The position numbers and the translations under genes are program-made. Under the pieces are notes generated by a model. It had not been told where the DNA came from and ran no database searches. It saw only the letters and a program-made list of their open reading frames with translations. Positions 21,628 to 30,403 of a stretch of DNA of 64,000 bases are shown piece by piece. The stretch's first letter is position 1; every line of letters begins with the position of its first letter. The stretch is taken from positions 1 through 64,000 of the IMG/VR virus record IMGVR_UViG_3300031787_009175, one strand, 5' to 3'. This DNA is from a virus.

Positions 21628-21792
21628 ATGGATTCTAAGGACTCAGAAATTAAAAATTTAAAGATTTCCAAAGAGGTTCACGATATATTAAAGAGATATT
21701 GTGACAAACGAGGTATAAAAATTTATCGTTTCTTGGAAAGTATTATTCGTGAAAAGTGTGAAGAAAAAAAAGATATTTATGGTGAAAAATGA
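21628..21792 (+). CDS. Small ribbon-helix-helix-like DNA-binding protein
   Basis: 54 aa. The pattern LKISKEVHDILKRYCDKRG (strand then first helix) followed by IKIYRFLESIIREKCEEKK (turn and second helix) fits Arc/CopG/MetJ-type ribbon-helix-helix repressors, whose N-terminal strand pairs across a dimer to enter the major groove. Its stop overlaps the start of the secreted protein gene in ATGA, so the two form one unit. It may regulate its own cassette or the divergent sheath promoter. The fold is supported by pattern only. Confidence 0.65.
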   Translation: MDSKDSEIKNLKISKEVHDILKRYCDKRGIKIYRFLESIIREKCEEKKDIYGEK

Positions 21793-23153
21793 AATTATTT
21801 AAATCCATCATATTAATATTGATATTATCCAATCACACGAACTTGTTCGGACAAGGTTCGAACACTTGTACTGGTGCTTTATCTAATCAAGTCACACTCC
21901 CTTTTTTTACAAATAACCAAACTACCTGTGGTGACCTGAATGATTATACGGGATTGAACGCTTGTGCAACAACAACAAGTGGAAATTACTACGGAGGTCA
22001 AGATTGGTTATATAGTTTTACACCACCACAAGATGGATTAATTAACATAACTTTAAACGATATAGTATCAACAGGATTTGCATATCCAAGTATATCATTG
22101 TTAACATCTTGTCCAGGAACTGCAGGAGCATGTTTGGGCTTTGTATTATGCGACCCAACACAAGGAGGTGGTTCATTAGTCAGACAAGTCCAAGGAGGTC
22201 AAACATACTATGTATTAATAGATGCGTTCACTTGGTCTAATTTTTTTTCAAATTGCTACCAATTTGACCTAAGTATAAACTTAACAACTGTTATTCCACA
22301 ACAAGGTTGTAATAACATTAATTTTAACTCAGGAACTTTCAATGGATGGTATGGAACTACCGGTTTATCAACAATGTCACCTAATGGGTCTCCAACACCT
22401 AACTACAACTCCAACTCAATTGGTATCGTAAATGGTAGACATACAATAATGACAGGTGGAAATGACCCATGTGGTGGATTTCCAAGGGTTGACCCACTTG
22501 GTAGTCCTCGTTCTGTAAGGTTAGGGAACAATAATGTTAATTCAGAGGCAGAACAACTTATTCAAACATTTATGGTTACCTCAACTAATAATAGTTTTAC
22601 ATATAGATATGCTGTTGTTTTTGAAGACCCTGGCCATAACTCAAATGAACAACCTTTTTTTAGGGCATTATTAAGAGACCAAAACGGAAATGTAATTCCT
22701 TGTTCAGAATTCGTTGTTTCAGCGGCAGGAAATCTACCTGGATTCTTCAATTCAGTTACTTGTTCAGGTGTTGTATATAAGCCTTGGAGTTCGGTAAATG
22801 TTGATTTAACAAACTATATCGGACAATCGGTAACTGCCGAATTCACAACAGGAGATTGTAGTCAAGGGGCTCATTATGGGTATGCCTATATTGATGCAGA
22901 ATGTTCACCATCCGTATTACAATTATTACCTGATACTATTTGTCTTGGTGAAAGTATTACGTTAAACGCCCCGCCTGGTTATCAATCATATCAGTGGTTA
23001 CCAGGTAATGAAACCACACAAAGTATAACAGTAACACCGAACAACACAACTAACTATCAATTAAATTTGACCGCATTTAATGGTTGTGTCACCTCCACCC
23101 AAGTCCCAATTACAGTTATCCCATATCCCACGGTAAGTGTTTTTACTAATTAA
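21789..23153 (+). CDS. Secreted Bacteroidota-type protein with signal peptide and Ig/PKD-like domain
   Basis: 454 aa. Residues 1-21 are a clear Sec signal peptide (MKLFKSIILILILS, then NLFGQ). Residues about 25-165 form a beta-sandwich like bacterial pre-peptidase C-terminal domains, typical of secreted Bacteroidota proteins (QDWLYSFTPPQDGLINITL, GGQTYYVLIDAF). Residues about 170-375 resemble a MAM or carbohydrate-binding-type module, and about 378-450 an Ig/PKD-like repeat (PDTICLGESITLNAPPGY, YQWLPGNETTQSITVTPN). No C-terminal type IX sorting domain follows; the protein ends abruptly and its last 8 bp overlap the stop of the convergent gp15-like gene, so it looks truncated. It is on the strand opposite to the tail genes around it. 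Probably acquired from a host and acting outside the cell or on the virion. Confidence 0.75.
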   Translation: MKLFKSIILILILSNHTNLFGQGSNTCTGALSNQVTLPFFTNNQTTCGDLNDYTGLNACATTTSGNYYGGQDWLYSFTPPQDGLINITLNDIVSTGFAYPSISLLTSCPGTAGACLGFVLCDPTQGGGSLVRQVQGGQTYYVLIDAFTWSNFFSNCYQFDLSINLTTVIPQQGCNNINFNSGTFNGWYGTTGLSTMSPNGSPTPNYNSNSIGIVNGRHTIMTGGNDPCGGFPRVDPLGSPRSVRLGNNNVNSEAEQLIQTFMVTSTNNSFTYRYAVVFEDPGHNSNEQPFFRALLRDQNGNVIPCSEFVVSAAGNLPGFFNSVTCSGVVYKPWSSVNVDLTNYIGQSVTAEFTTGDCSQGAHYGYAYIDAECSPSVLQLLPDTICLGESITLNAPPGYQSYQWLPGNETTQSITVTPNNTTNYQLNLTAFNGCVTSTQVPITVIPYPTVSVFTN

Positions 23154-24703: not shown

Positions 24704-24710
24704 AATATTG

Positions 24711-24718
24711 ATAAATAT
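24711..24718 (-). promoter_or_regulatory. Candidate late-gene element ATATTTAT
   Basis: ATATTTAT on the minus strand, 7 nt before the neck gene ATG, inside the 52-bp divergent spacer with the helicase. Confidence 0.35.
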
Positions 24719-24755
24719 TTACTCATTTCTTATTTTTAGTTATAAAACTATTTTT

Positions 24756-26510
24756 TTGGAAAACCTAATCTCAATAGAACAAAAGGCGATTGATATTTTA
24801 TCCTCCTATGAAGGAGGCAATAATTTTATATTGAGATTAAAACAACAACATTTGGTTAATAAAAAGTTCTTTCCAACAAGAACACAATCTGATTATATAA
24901 TTACATACCATAACGAAAAACCAAAGGTTGCCAAAAAGTGGGTTGATTTGGACCCCTATTTTGCAAGAAAGTTTGCGGATGAAAAATTGTTTCGTGAGAT
25001 TCCTGATAAAATCTATGTTGAGAAACTATTGGTAGAAAAGGAGAAATCCTACCATATTTGGGGTAAGTTTTTTGAATCAGAACATTTAAGTGACTTTTGG
25101 GTTCCAAAAGGTGCCTTAATTAAAACACACACCATAGAAAAAGTTGATATTGATTACTCAAAATACAGTAATAGACCACCACTTTCACATCAAAAAGAAG
25201 CGATTGAGAAATTGGCAGGAAGTAAAAGATTTATATTGGCAGATGATATGGGTTTGGGTAAAACAACATCAACAATTATCGCCGCTTTAGAGTCAGGAGC
25301 GAAAAAAGTATTAATCATTTGTCCCGCATCACTTAAAATAAATTGGTCAAGAGAAATTGAGAACTACACCGACAAATCAATTTATATATGTGAGGGTAAG
25401 AATTTTTCATCTGACCACGATTTTGTTATCGTTAATTACGATATCATCAAAAACTTTCACGACATTAAAGATAAAGAAACCTCACAAATTATTAATTCAA
25501 AATTTGATTTGGTTATCATAGACGAAGCCCATTACATTAAAAATTCACAGGCACAAAGAACAAAACTTATAAATCATTTTGTTAAGAATATTAATAGAGT
25601 GTGGTTATTAACAGGAACTCCGATTACATCTCGTCCAATTGATTATTATAATTTATTATCTTTGGTTGAGTCCCCTGTCGCTCAAAATTGGATGGCTTAT
25701 GTGATTCGTTTTTGTGAGGGTTATCAGTTTAGAGCAGGTCAAAGAAAAGTGTGGAACGTAAACGGAGCGTCTAATTTGGATGAACTTCGTGAGAGAACCT
25801 CAAAACAAATACTTCGTAGATTAAAAACTGATGTGTTAGATTTACCTGAAAAGATTATAAATCCTGTTTATTTGAGATTAAAATCACGGGAGTATGAAAA
25901 TCTTATGGGTGAGTATTTTGATTGGTTTAGAAATAATAAAGAGGAATCATCATCTCTTACAGTTCAGTTCTCAAAACTGATGAAAGTAAGACAGGTAATC
26001 GCAGAAGAAAAGGTTTCTCAAACAATCGAACTTGCAGAAAACATTTTAGAACAAGGTAAGAAAGTTATTATTTTTTCAAACTTTACTGAACCACTCAAAC
26101 GGATTCACGAACACTTCGGTAAGATGTCTGTTTACTTGGATGGTTCTACTACCAAACCAGCAAGACAAAAGGCCGTTGATGATTTTCAAGATAACGACAA
26201 GGTTAAAGTTTTTTGTGGGAACATAAAAGCCGCAGGTGTTGGTATCACACTCACATCCGCTGAAGTTGTAATATTTAATGACTTATCTTTTGTTCCGTCG
26301 GACCATTCACAAGCGGAAGATAGGGCTTACAGATACGGTCAAAAAAATAGTGTTTTAGTTTATTATCCCTTGTTTGAAAATACCATAGAAGGTGCTATAT
26401 ATGACATCTTAATTAGGAAAAAAGGGATATTTGAAACTGTAATGGGGGACAACTTAGACAAGGGTAGTGTAGCCGAACTAATACTCAATTCAATCAATGG
26501 TCACGAATAA
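24756..26510 (+). CDS. SNF2-family DNA helicase/translocase (SMARCAL1-like)
   Basis: 584 aa from TTG 24756. No ATG is available before the core; a TTG at 24708 would add 16 hydrophobic residues that look non-native. Superfamily 2 motifs are complete: ADDMGLGKTT (motif I, about 161-170), ICPASLKINW (Ia), IIDEAHYIKN (DEAH, about 255), LLTGTPITS (III), VIIFSNFTEPL (IV), GITLTSAEVVIFND (V) and QAEDRAYRYGQ (VI, about 520-530). The 'DRayRyGQ' form is typical of SNF2 proteins such as SMARCAL1/HARP that reanneal or remodel DNA forks. It may stand in for T4 UvsW. It is divergent from the neck gene and followed after 45 bp by the SOD fusion gene. Confidence 0.88.
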   Translation: MENLISIEQKAIDILSSYEGGNNFILRLKQQHLVNKKFFPTRTQSDYIITYHNEKPKVAKKWVDLDPYFARKFADEKLFREIPDKIYVEKLLVEKEKSYHIWGKFFESEHLSDFWVPKGALIKTHTIEKVDIDYSKYSNRPPLSHQKEAIEKLAGSKRFILADDMGLGKTTSTIIAALESGAKKVLIICPASLKINWSREIENYTDKSIYICEGKNFSSDHDFVIVNYDIIKNFHDIKDKETSQIINSKFDLVIIDEAHYIKNSQAQRTKLINHFVKNINRVWLLTGTPITSRPIDYYNLLSLVESPVAQNWMAYVIRFCEGYQFRAGQRKVWNVNGASNLDELRERTSKQILRRLKTDVLDLPEKIINPVYLRLKSREYENLMGEYFDWFRNNKEESSSLTVQFSKLMKVRQVIAEEKVSQTIELAENILEQGKKVIIFSNFTEPLKRIHEHFGKMSVYLDGSTTKPARQKAVDDFQDNDKVKVFCGNIKAAGVGITLTSAEVVIFNDLSFVPSDHSQAEDRAYRYGQKNSVLVYYPLFENTIEGAIYDILIRKKGIFETVMGDNLDKGSVAELILNSINGHE

Positions 26511-26555: not shown

Positions 26556-28094
26556 ATGAAAAAACTTCAAGAGAAAGTAGAACAAATAGCCAATCAAATA
26601 AAAGAAATAGACACAAAGGAAAATGAAAAATTGTTTATAAACGAAATGAAAAAAATAGGGATTGAGAAACTACCATATTCCTATTCTGCTTTAAAACAAT
26701 TTATTGACCCTGAGACGATGTCTTACCACTACAACGGACATTACAAAACTTATGTAGACAAGTTAAATGATGCATTAAGTAAAAAAGATTACGGTGATGT
26801 TGAGTTAGAGGAAATAATTAAATCAATTGGTAAGTATAACAAAACAATTAGAAATAACGCTGGTGGTGCTTTTAACCACGCCTTATTTTGGAAAATGTTA
26901 TCTCCAACGGAACAAAAATGTGGTGGTCAGATTTATGAAAGAATAAAAAAAGACTTCCATAACTTTTTGGGATTCAAACAAGAATTTACCGAAAAAGCAA
27001 AAAAGAATTTCGGGTCAGGCTGGATTTGGTTAGTTTTGAATAAGACGGGTAGTTTAAAAATTATGACTACACAAAACCAAGATAATCCACTTATGAATAT
27101 TGTTAGAAATGGTGGTTATCCACTTTTAGGTCTTGATTTGTGGGAACACGCATATTATTTACGATACAAAAATAAAAGAGATGATTATATCAAAAACTTT
27201 TTCAAGGCAATTAATTGGAAGTTTGTAAATAAAATGTATACTATGAGAGTTAAAACCAAACTTGATGAATCATTGCAAACCAAACAAATATTATCTGAGG
27301 GTATTAGTGAATCATGCTCAAAGACCGATAAAGAGGGATACAGACTCATATTCAATGTAAACCCACAAGTCAAAAATATTTACAAAGAAGGTATTGGGTC
27401 GATTCTAAAAGTTGTTTTTTCTGACAGATATTATGAAGAAGGAGAATATCACGAAGGAGAAGGTTATGGTGTATATGATTTAGAGGGAGCCGGAAGGTCA
27501 GTAATTAATTATCTTAATACGAATTATACTTGTTTTTGTATTTTGGTGAATGACATAAATAAACTATTAAGGTCGCAAAGTCAACCTTTATTACAATTCA
27601 TAGGTCAACCACCATTGATTCAAATCCAAGAAGTTCAAAGGATGGTTTCTATTATGGAACAGTTCAAATTTAGAATTTTTTCCACAAAGTCGAATACATT
27701 CAAAAATTTGATGGCGACATTAGGTAAAACCAGTGATTTGGGGGATATCAGAGAGAATGTAGCAATAAATATTCTGAAAAGAGTATACGGAAAAGAAAAT
27801 GTTCGCCGTATAGGTGGATTAGGTGTTGTGGACGATATGAAAGCAGGAATAGATGCTATTATAAAAGTCGATGGAATCAATCATACCGCACAAATAAAAG
27901 GTTTCGGTGGCGTAGAATTATTAGATGATAAATATATAATAACAAATACAGGTCAGGTTAAAAAGTATAAAACAAAATGGATGATTTTCATAAATGCTAA
28001 ACACACGATATTTATTTTTGATAATTCAGATACTGAAATAGTTGATGGAAATTACTCATTCCCTAAATCGAAACTCTTGAGGAAAATAAATTAA
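26556..28094 (+). CDS. Fe/Mn superoxide dismutase fused to a PD-(D/E)XK nuclease-like domain
   Basis: 512 aa. Residues about 36-228 are a full Fe/Mn superoxide dismutase: metal ligands His58 (YHYNGHYKTYV), His108 (NHALFW), Asp194 and His198 (DLWEHAYY). The invariant NFGSGWIWLV (151-160) and second-sphere His62 and Tyr66 are also present. Gln175 in NQDNP with GG before FNH fits the manganese-type arrangement. After a linker (about 232-255) comes an unfamiliar region (260-390). Residues about 395-490 then look like a restriction-endonuclease fold: Glu400 in a helix (DIRENVAINIL), Asp433 in AGIDAIIKV and QIK (446-448) give E...D...QxK. SODs convert superoxide to peroxide and oxygen; the nuclease assignment is by motif only. 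It is 1 nt from the next gene. Confidence 0.85.
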   Translation: MKKLQEKVEQIANQIKEIDTKENEKLFINEMKKIGIEKLPYSYSALKQFIDPETMSYHYNGHYKTYVDKLNDALSKKDYGDVELEEIIKSIGKYNKTIRNNAGGAFNHALFWKMLSPTEQKCGGQIYERIKKDFHNFLGFKQEFTEKAKKNFGSGWIWLVLNKTGSLKIMTTQNQDNPLMNIVRNGGYPLLGLDLWEHAYYLRYKNKRDDYIKNFFKAINWKFVNKMYTMRVKTKLDESLQTKQILSEGISESCSKTDKEGYRLIFNVNPQVKNIYKEGIGSILKVVFSDRYYEEGEYHEGEGYGVYDLEGAGRSVINYLNTNYTCFCILVNDINKLLRSQSQPLLQFIGQPPLIQIQEVQRMVSIMEQFKFRIFSTKSNTFKNLMATLGKTSDLGDIRENVAINILKRVYGKENVRRIGGLGVVDDMKAGIDAIIKVDGINHTAQIKGFGGVELLDDKYIITNTGQVKKYKTKWMIFINAKHTIFIFDNSDTEIVDGNYSFPKSKLLRKIN

Positions 28095-28095
28095 T

Positions 28096-29256
28096 ATGAA
28101 ACTTATTATTTCAGAGTCGCAATACAGAAAATTGATTGAGAGTCAAGAAGAATTGATGTCTCTGTTTCAAACCAGCCATTTGCATTTGTTATGTAAAAAA
28201 TTCAAAAATGATGAAAGTTCTGCTGCTTGCAGATTACTTAATTTGAAAAATTCGTTAAAAAACAAAAAACTTGAGGACCAACTCGAGGATAGTATTGAAA
28301 TATTGTTCAAATTCTTCCCTAAGAGAACTGTTGGGGTTTTACCCAAAATTTTAGAACTTTCTTTGGAATATCCCGAAAGAACAATCAATACTCTCAAATT
28401 AATAAGTGATTTTATCGTTGACCCCAAATTCAAAGATGATGAAACAAAAAGAAGATTACTCAAATTGAGAGACGTGACAACGATGCCTGACGATTTGGAG
28501 GATTTACTTAAAAAAGCAAGAGAAAAGCAATATTTGAAATATGAAAAAGATGTTGTTGGTAAGGAAACTCAGTTTCAAATGAAACGAACATCATTGTCTT
28601 TACAATTTAGTTGTGGCGACGACATAGACAAAAAGTTTTTGGACAAAATTGAAAAATTCAAATCATCAAAACCAAAAGAATTCATTAACTTGCTTGAGAA
28701 AATGAAATCTTGTATAACTGATTCTCTTGTAAACTCAAAGCCCATAAAGGCTGACGTTGTTTCTGTCACTCCACTGTATTATATGGAAGGTGATGAAAAA
28801 ATAAAAGTTTTCGACGCCAATTCTAATTTCGAAATTAAAAAAATGGACACTGAAATTGATAGTTACTTGTCTGAGTTTTTTTCGATATTCAAAAATACTA
28901 ACTACAAAAATCTAAAACAAACTCATTTGGAAATTTACAATAAAGTAATTGATGGTGTATATAATTGGATTAATGGAACGAGTGAGGCGAAACAATATCT
29001 AAATAAAATAAAAGATGAAATGGCTGGTGTTTTCTATGACAACTTTACTATTGTTCCATCAGAGTATATAGATTTGTATTGGTCTAATGTTGGACAACGT
29101 GGTTGCAAGGAAAAAAGACTTTCCATAAGGTTCAGAATAAATCCCGATTTAGTTGGTAGGGTCATTCCAATATACATATACGATAGAAATTCTGATATTT
29201 TAGAGAAAAAAGATTATGTGGTTAGTTCAGTAAACACTCAAAAAGTTATTTGTTAG
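28096..29256 (+). CDS. Hypothetical protein with ISESQ N-terminal motif
   Basis: 386 aa, no family recognised. The N-terminus LIISESQYRKLIES resembles the end of the 33-aa peptide at 17843. The first 200 residues are helical and very rich in Lys, Leu and Glu; residues about 290-330 are also helical, and the C-terminal 60 residues look beta-rich (RLSIRFRINPDLVGRVIPIYI). It starts 1 nt after the SOD fusion stop, so both are one unit, and gp13 follows 22 nt later. A virion-internal or injected protein is conceivable from the tag-like start and the late-gene company, but this is inference. Confidence 0.7.
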   Translation: MKLIISESQYRKLIESQEELMSLFQTSHLHLLCKKFKNDESSAACRLLNLKNSLKNKKLEDQLEDSIEILFKFFPKRTVGVLPKILELSLEYPERTINTLKLISDFIVDPKFKDDETKRRLLKLRDVTTMPDDLEDLLKKAREKQYLKYEKDVVGKETQFQMKRTSLSLQFSCGDDIDKKFLDKIEKFKSSKPKEFINLLEKMKSCITDSLVNSKPIKADVVSVTPLYYMEGDEKIKVFDANSNFEIKKMDTEIDSYLSEFFSIFKNTNYKNLKQTHLEIYNKVIDGVYNWINGTSEAKQYLNKIKDEMAGVFYDNFTIVPSEYIDLYWSNVGQRGCKEKRLSIRFRINPDLVGRVIPIYIYDRNSDILEKKDYVVSSVNTQKVIC

Positions 29257-29278: not shown

Positions 29279-30403
29279 ATGGCTGTAATCCCTGAACCCG
29301 ACAGAAGTAAACTTTACACACAAGTAAAACATTTACTTGGAGCACCACTACGTTCTATCGAAATAACTGATGAACAAATGGATACTCTATTGGAATTTTC
29401 TATTGGAGATTATTCACAATATGTTCAAGATTGGTTGATTGAATCTCAGTGGACCTCATTGTATAATTTAAATTTGGACACACAAAGTTTATCAAGAGCC
29501 TTTCTAACCAAAAGTTTGGATTGGGAAACGAGATATACTTACGCATACTCTAAAATTGTAGGACTACAAAATAGCGGTGATTGGGTATTAAAAAAAGATT
29601 TTATACAACTTGTAAGGGGTCAACAGATTTATGAAATTCCTGCGGGAAGAGAAATCAATGAACTTTTGTGGTTTACTCCAGCAACACTAAATAACATATT
29701 TTTTGACCCTTGGTCTTTCGGAGGTATTGGTTCAGGAGGATTAGGTGGTCCAGGTGGATTTGCACAAATGGGCACCACTGTTGGTTCATATTTTATGATG
29801 CCGGCTTTTGATATGTTGTTACGAATGCAAGAAGTTAACATACAAAGAAGGATTATAGCAGGAGATTTAACTTATCGTGTTACGGCCTTACCTGATGGTA
29901 AAAAAGCAATACATTTGATGCAAACACCCGGTGGTAAATTTGACTTTGGTAATGCACAAGTGATGCAAGGACAAGTATGGTATTGGTATTATGACACAGA
30001 AGGTGCTGACAGAGATTCTTGTTTGAAGGATAATCCTGATATAATTAAACTACCTTCTGATGTTCCATTCGACGAATTGTCTTGGGTCGACTTGAATAAC
30101 CCATCAAGACAGTGGATTCGTAGATGGTTTATTGCTTATGTAAAAGAAACCTTATCAAGAGTAAGAGGAAAATACAGTGGTAACTTGAAAACTCCTGATT
30201 CTGAATTAACTTTGGATTATACTTCTTTGGCAACTGAAGCTAAAGACGAAAAAACGAAATTAATTGAAGAATTAATTGGAACTGAGGGAAGGTTAACCAG
30301 ATTAAAACCTGAAAAAGTAATGGAAAGAGAAGCGTTAATCGCTGAAAATCTTAACAAACAATTGAAGTTCAGAGCATTCCCAAGACAAATATATGTAATT
30401 TAA
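29279..30403 (+). CDS. 13: Neck / head-completion protein, gp13-like
   Basis: 374 aa against 309 in T4 gp13. The N-terminus HLLGAPLRSIEITDEQMDTLLEFSIGDYSQYV carries the recognisable 'LGaP...IElTdeQld..l..Ai..Y' pattern of T4-like gp13, which seals the packaged head and forms the neck with gp14. A Gly-rich loop (about 142-165) interrupts the middle. The C-terminal part has RQWIRRWFIAYVKETLSRVRGKY, the helical segment found near the end of gp13 homologues. It is followed 1 nt later by a 111-aa gene. The strand is opposite to gp14/gp15-like genes, so the neck genes are split between two units. Confidence 0.75.
   Translation: MAVIPEPDRSKLYTQVKHLLGAPLRSIEITDEQMDTLLEFSIGDYSQYVQDWLIESQWTSLYNLNLDTQSLSRAFLTKSLDWETRYTYAYSKIVGLQNSGDWVLKKDFIQLVRGQQIYEIPAGREINELLWFTPATLNNIFFDPWSFGGIGSGGLGGPGGFAQMGTTVGSYFMMPAFDMLLRMQEVNIQRRIIAGDLTYRVTALPDGKKAIHLMQTPGGKFDFGNAQVMQGQVWYWYYDTEGADRDSCLKDNPDIIKLPSDVPFDELSWVDLNNPSRQWIRRWFIAYVKETLSRVRGKYSGNLKTPDSELTLDYTSLATEAKDEKTKLIEELIGTEGRLTRLKPEKVMEREALIAENLNKQLKFRAFPRQIYVI

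Follow-up and report, generated by a model that had tools for sequence, protein, structure and literature searches.

A widespread phage protein joining a Mn-type superoxide dismutase to a PD-(D/E)XK-fold domain, with candidate prohead-protease sites around the dismutase

The locus and the phages carrying it

The window, i.e. the whole stretch of 64,000 nucleotides analysed here, is part of a 94,783-base IMG/VR virus record. At 26556..28094 it carries a gene with an ATG start and no internal stops, encoding a protein of 512 aa in which a superoxide dismutase (SOD) is fused to a nuclease-type domain; this gene, its parts and the genes of helicase, 386-aa protein and adaptor described below lie on the plus strand. 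The protein begins with a short N-terminal helix, part of a leader (aa 1–30, 26556..26645) that is variable save for E30 and its P3 residue and that we propose to be a capsid-targeting propeptide. The leader is followed by the Mn-type Fe/Mn SOD domain (aa 36–229, 26661..27242), a linker, a helical middle domain (aa 255–385, 27318..27710), which always accompanies the nuclease, and a PD-(D/E)XK nuclease domain (aa 386–512, 27711..28091), assigned by a predicted model, fold matches and alignment.

Upstream lies the gene of a SNF2-family helicase (24708..26510; Pfam SNF2-rel_dom, E 4.5e-32), a conserved partner located less than 200 nt away in 109 of 111 loci with SOD and in 19 of 20 loci lacking it. 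Downstream follow a gene for a 386-aa protein with the leader-like start MKLIISES (28096..29256), present in some relatives only, and the conserved gene of an Ad2-like head-tail adaptor, or connector (29279..30403; PHROG 211, E 1.7e-9), which is found less than 150 nt downstream in 119 of 136 SOD-bearing loci. SNF2 helicase, SOD-nuclease and Ad2-like connector thus form a fixed gene block, and the gene for DNA polymerase B comes next past the adaptor, on the opposite strand. The major capsid protein matches Pfam Gp23 (E 1.9e-73). The record containing the window encodes a Peptidase_S77 prohead protease, as do 4 of 6 relatives, in all cases over the cut-off. The combination of Gp23 capsid protein and S77 prohead protease, which occur together in the same phage, identifies the phages as T4-like. 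Those carrying the fusion are large, uncultured and widespread as a group. Elsewhere in the window, positions 21789–23153 encode a protein of 454 aa whose N-terminus is hydrophobic and which gave weak PKD/Ig-like (CHU_C-associated) matches; proteins of this type are seen in Bacteroidota, which hints at the host phylum. Past the window, record positions 64055–75474 (L167, 55–11474) hold a long run of genes that appear glycosyltransferase-, methyltransferase- and sugar-epimerase-like.

An assembly chimera was considered and ruled out, since every complete sequence among the best 80 of at least 598 relatives in IMG/VR represents the whole fusion; these 80 match over the full length with 54–100% identity, except for one contig-end fragment. 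At least for this lineage, the number of relatives also gives no support to the assumption of the initial annotation that phage-encoded SODs are uncommon. Median dN/dS was 0.044 in the SOD, rising to 0.048 in the middle domain and 0.064 in the nuclease, while leader and linker had higher values of 0.13–0.14. Constraint of this kind in all three folded parts makes the fusion a feature far beyond chance, and the architecture is therefore real: one protein combines an intact SOD with a domain of the PD-(D/E)XK fold.

Each component is known, and the fusion as such is present in UniProt, where it is recorded as SOD only. Entry A0A6J5L953 (UniProt/BFVD; "superoxide dismutase [uncultured Caudovirales phage]") is evidently the same fusion with 501 aa, and its C-terminal half superposes on that of the window protein with a TM of 0.94, but this half is unnamed there. 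No paper describing a SOD–nuclease fusion was found in the open-access literature. The earlier impression that the fusion was undescribed consequently holds for its nuclease half, but not for the fusion itself.

The dismutase and the nuclease-fold halves

Pfam recognized the SOD half by two domains, Sod_Fe_N (aa 36–116, E 1.5e-22) and Sod_Fe_C (aa 124–226, E 5.1e-38), and the scan of the 512-aa protein returned nothing significant outside of these. Matches by sequence in the PDB are Mn-, Fe- or cambialistic SODs, the nearest being Staphylococcus aureus SodA (E 2.3e-55). The four metal ligands H58, H108, D194 and H198, which had been reported as intact, are indeed present and unchanged in 101 of 101 distinct full-length relatives, and both Pfam domains together with these ligands place the protein among the Fe/Mn superoxide dismutases. 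Y66 and W112 are likewise invariant across the 101 sequences, as are the second-sphere residues typical of Mn enzymes (G103-G104; Q175 in NQDNP). Of the NFGSGW signature noted initially, the FGSGW core was confirmed, while N151 is not conserved and is replaced by R in most sequences. By fold, ligands and constraint this is an ordinary Mn-type SOD, which would be expected to be enzymatically active.

Compared to Fe/Mn superoxide dismutases (PF00081/PF02777) such as S. aureus SodA, the window SOD shares the whole fold, the ligands and the Mn-type second sphere, but it is encoded by a phage and linked to both a leader and a nuclease domain. The SODs of Vibrio phage 2.275.O and Pseudomonas phage PA5oct are phage Fe/Mn SODs as well; however, identity is ~26%, the match is limited to the SOD part and the nuclease half is missing. 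A pattern search for the nearest bacterial SODs retrieved two, too few for inferring a donor.

For the C-terminal half, the initial fold search listed SOD matches only, and we therefore modelled this half by itself, using an alignment of 50 sequences. The resulting AlphaFold model has a pLDDT of 92.6 and a pTM of 0.85. In Foldseek searches, its best PDB match was the homing endonuclease I-Ssp6803I (2ost, E 4e-4, probability 1.00), Hjc resolvases were retrieved with a probability of 0.99, and several of the viral matches are annotated as PD(D/E)XK proteins. In the model, the catalytic-type residue E400 (27753..27755) lies within a long helix, D433 (27852..27854) opens a strand and Q446-x-K448 (27891..27899) resides in the next strand, which is the arrangement required for the PD-(D/E)XK fold. 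These four residues and D427 are invariant in all 101 distinct sequences and are also kept in distant paralogues of ~20% identity in the alignment of 50. Even a 25%-identical standalone homologue encoded by a 735-kb phage (LR756501; L082, 7743–8615) retains E, D and QxK. With a core fold bearing E, D and (D/E/Q)xK, the domain belongs to the PD-(D/E)XK superfamily, as the initial annotation had surmised from the E...D...QxK arrangement; both checks proposed there, structure prediction and conservation of residues 433, 446 and 448 in homologues, yielded the anticipated result. From the predicted fold and its residues, the C-terminal part would be a metal-dependent DNase.

No curated Pfam family was found for the nuclease half, the matches remaining sub-threshold (e.g. 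RE_MjaI, E 0.002 in 2 of 50 sequences). Membership of the PD-(D/E)XK superfamily as a whole does not depend on recognition by curated Pfam families, and as no curated family covers it, the nuclease half represents an undescribed branch of this superfamily. A sequence-profile search of the PDB with the C-terminal half gave no significant match, 84,980 cellular genomes contained no homologue, and PADLOC matched no toxin or defence family. The PD-(D/E)XK core is common to the window nuclease, I-Ssp6803I and Hjc resolvases, but identity is ~20% with a TM of ~0.4, and the window nuclease is not intron-borne, occupies a fixed genomic place and possesses the extra middle domain. Assignment as a homing endonuclease was rejected on account of the fixed syntenic place in nearly all loci and the vertical inheritance of the fusion, and likeness to Holliday junction resolvases appears to be a resemblance of predicted folds only. 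Irrespective of how the protein is used, a PD-(D/E)XK family is thereby named in a very common phage protein hitherto annotated as superoxide dismutase only.

Evolution of the fusion

Across all loci fetched, 137 ORFs comprise SOD, middle domain and nuclease, and 22 comprise middle domain and nuclease, the latter including the frameshift case described below. In a tree built from the nuclease half, forms without SOD sit at two separate places within the SOD-bearing ones, and therefore the fusion is ancestral and the SOD was lost on two occasions. After its loss, leader, linker site and nuclease were all retained. One SOD-less group reads SINEMKKIEIEKL-KSIISEGKSERCS, indicating that the SOD was cleanly removed between leader and linker. 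In one locus (L115, 5051–6591) SOD and nuclease appear as two ORFs. Their interpretation as independent genes was rejected: the upstream frame reads KEFLTEAVKSEPCS, which points to one frameshift within the linker that may stem from a sequencing error. Paralogues consisting of middle domain and nuclease (L043 2160–3638, L014 1851–3338, L186 1480–2514 and L188 1468–2544, all on the minus strand) are either joined to a Zn-ribbon and Phage_L5_gp82 (PF25735) or occur as free-standing proteins that have a leader.

The two halves differ in their divergence. Within the window's own subclade the SODs are 94–96% identical, but the nuclease halves only 50–57%. In 16 pairs, SODs of 93–97% identity are accompanied by nuclease halves of at most 65%, while the reverse pattern was seen in 0 pairs. 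Moreover, DNA similarity to the close kin L003 is lost between ~27737 and 29186, with flanks that are 85–86% identical. Both observations indicate that the nuclease end is exchanged or diversifying. The island of divergence from L003 (27737–29186) takes in the nuclease C-terminus and the 386-aa gene.

Candidate prohead-protease sites and possible fates of the protein

In T4, gp21 cleaves after L/I-X-E and removes propeptides of 7–65 residues, and the targeting leader of the internal proteins comprises 10 residues (PMC9026906). New here are three (L/I)xE motifs of this T4 prohead-protease pattern, one placed right ahead of the SOD and two between it and the nuclease. Proposed site 1, I-N-E|M (aa 28–30, 26637..26645), has E in 92 of 101 sequences and L, I or V at P3 in 92 of 101; most sequences without E30 possess IDE or IQE a few residues off. 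Proposed sites 2, L-D-E|S (aa 236–238, 27261..27269), and 3, L-S-E|G (aa 246–248, 27291..27299), lie in the linker. At site 2, which is modelled with a pLDDT below 50, both E and a P3 residue L, I, V or M occur in 100 of 100 ungapped sequences; at site 3, E is present in 99 and such a P3 residue in 100 of 101. Among 46 non-redundant proteins, E30, E238 and E248 are conserved to 93–98% and P3 is nearly always L or I, while the linker near E238 and E248 is otherwise poorly conserved (0.45–0.52) and disordered in the model. As would be expected of a protease motif, P3 switches from L to I and back among the sequences, and X is unconstrained. The family has ten conserved Glu columns, three of which show L or I (rarely V or M) at P3 in every sequence having the Glu; these three all lie outside the folded domains. 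In five neighbouring families, such a P3 residue occurs in 11 of 64 conserved Glu columns (17%), a background at which three of three sites would arise by chance with p ~0.005.

Leaders of this kind are not confined to the full fusion. The SOD-less variants have (L/I)xE directly ahead of the nuclease, nuclease paralogues likewise begin with leaders ending in (L/I)xE, and the propeptide of the capsid protein ends with INE|A at residue 60 in 8 of 8 phages, the sequence being variable thereafter. Of 320 ORFs in a 322-kb relative (G001, L191–L206), 28 have an [LI]xE ending at residue 7 and 17 have one ending at residue 9, as compared to ~5 ORFs per position elsewhere. Dozens of small unknown proteins in this genome share short leaders such as MKIIITES, MKKVVRLSES and MKKVIRLTES, and the products of L168 5513–5881 and 5884–6372 as well as that of window 28096–29256 were grouped with them. 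It is possible that these short-leader proteins form a set of capsid-targeted proteins.

These features suggest that the fusion is a late, capsid-targeted polyprotein that is cut within the head into free SOD and free nuclease, which would probably be ejected along with the DNA; in our estimation this reading is as probable as all others combined. The N-terminal helix would take the chain into the prohead core in the manner of T4 capsid-targeting sequences. There, the gp21-type protease would cut past (L/I)xE at ~E30 and at E238 and/or E248, removing the leader and parting the SOD from middle domain and nuclease, as the conserved motifs and the presence of protease and capsid protein suggest. 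The SOD would fold as an ordinary Mn-type enzyme and the C-terminal part would act as PD-(D/E)XK metal-dependent DNase. In the weakest step of the scheme, both might stay inside the head and, along with the DNA, pass into the host, where the SOD may clear superoxide early in infection, or otherwise shield packaged DNA, and the nuclease may target host or competing DNA. The initial annotation had suggested functional coupling of SOD and nuclease. Given the conserved sites flanking the SOD, the two are probably co-delivered and then separated rather than forming one machine. The broader view, according to which this two-enzyme virion polyprotein is one of dozens of leader-tagged, head-loaded proteins per genome in widespread large T4-like aquatic phages, falls a little short of an even chance.

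In addition to the three inter-domain sites, the S77 protease and the INE|A propeptide of Gp23, the leaders in SOD-less forms, paralogues and G001 ORFs as well as the neighbouring head-tail adaptor speak for a capsid-processed polyprotein. As in T4 internal head proteins (IPI–III, Alt), which are processed by gp21 (PMC9026906), a conserved (L/I)xE follows an N-terminal leader in phages with Gp23 capsid protein and S77 protease; however, the window protein comprises two enzymes per chain with internal sites, and its packaging is a proposal. A precedent for a virion SOD is the packaged, active enzyme in the virion of chlorovirus PBCV-1 (PMC7019647), although this is an unfused Cu/Zn SOD of an unrelated family from a eukaryotic virus. 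Against processing in the head speak the shortness of the (L/I)xE motif, which also arises by chance, the 30-aa helical leader, which exceeds in length the short leaders typical of these phages, and the lack of enrichment of short leaders in the window's own 94.8-kb record (11 of 80 ORFs vs. 5–12 in control windows). Furthermore, if a nuclease shares the head with the genome, something would have to restrain it, for which no candidate was identified. If the polyprotein reading is true, phages can load and separate several enzymes by one targeting signal, the SOD packaged in virions of algal viruses has its counterpart in phages, and a leader ending in (L/I)xE becomes a simple rule for predicting injected unknown proteins in large T4-like phages.

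The main rival is a bifunctional DNA-processing enzyme outside the virion: a nuclease resembling Hjc and I-Ssp6803I would team up with the neighbouring SNF2 helicase to process branched DNA from replication before it is packaged, the SOD would protect replication from oxidative damage, and the linker would stay uncut. The helicase is the nearest gene partner and, being maintained with and without SOD, fits DNA processing equally well; the fold matches to Hjc and the fact that the nuclease was never lost point in the same direction. In the large relatives, a search covering two resolvase families detected no RuvC and no Endonuclease VII above the cut-off. The top fold match is a homing endonuclease rather than Hjc, and neither the conserved (L/I)xE at both SOD borders nor the survival of the leader after SOD loss is explained, so that this alternative appears rather unlikely to us. 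The leader and the protease-like sites would equally lack an explanation if the protein were a nuclease for host takeover or competition that is produced in the course of infection, the SOD relieving stress, the fusion serving coordinated expression only and neither part being packaged. The diverged nuclease halves next to near-identical SODs are expected of an arms-race part, and several nuclease paralogues with differing N-terminal parts exist in the lineage; considering also the negative PADLOC result, we regard this role as improbable. Finally, the C-terminal fold might be non-catalytic and serve DNA binding or structure, leaving the SOD as sole active part. Replacement by Q of the acidic residue in ExK is compatible with this idea, but none of E400, D433, Q446 and K448 varies, homologues of 25% identity still have E, D and QxK, and it was the SOD that was lost twice and not the nuclease, rendering a non-catalytic domain very improbable.

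Patterns derived from the standalone nuclease homologue of the 735-kb phage retrieved no relatives of it. Small proteins encoded next to this homologue start with MKKYNEYLLEE and MLTKFELFLEG, reminiscent of the leaders of T4 internal proteins.
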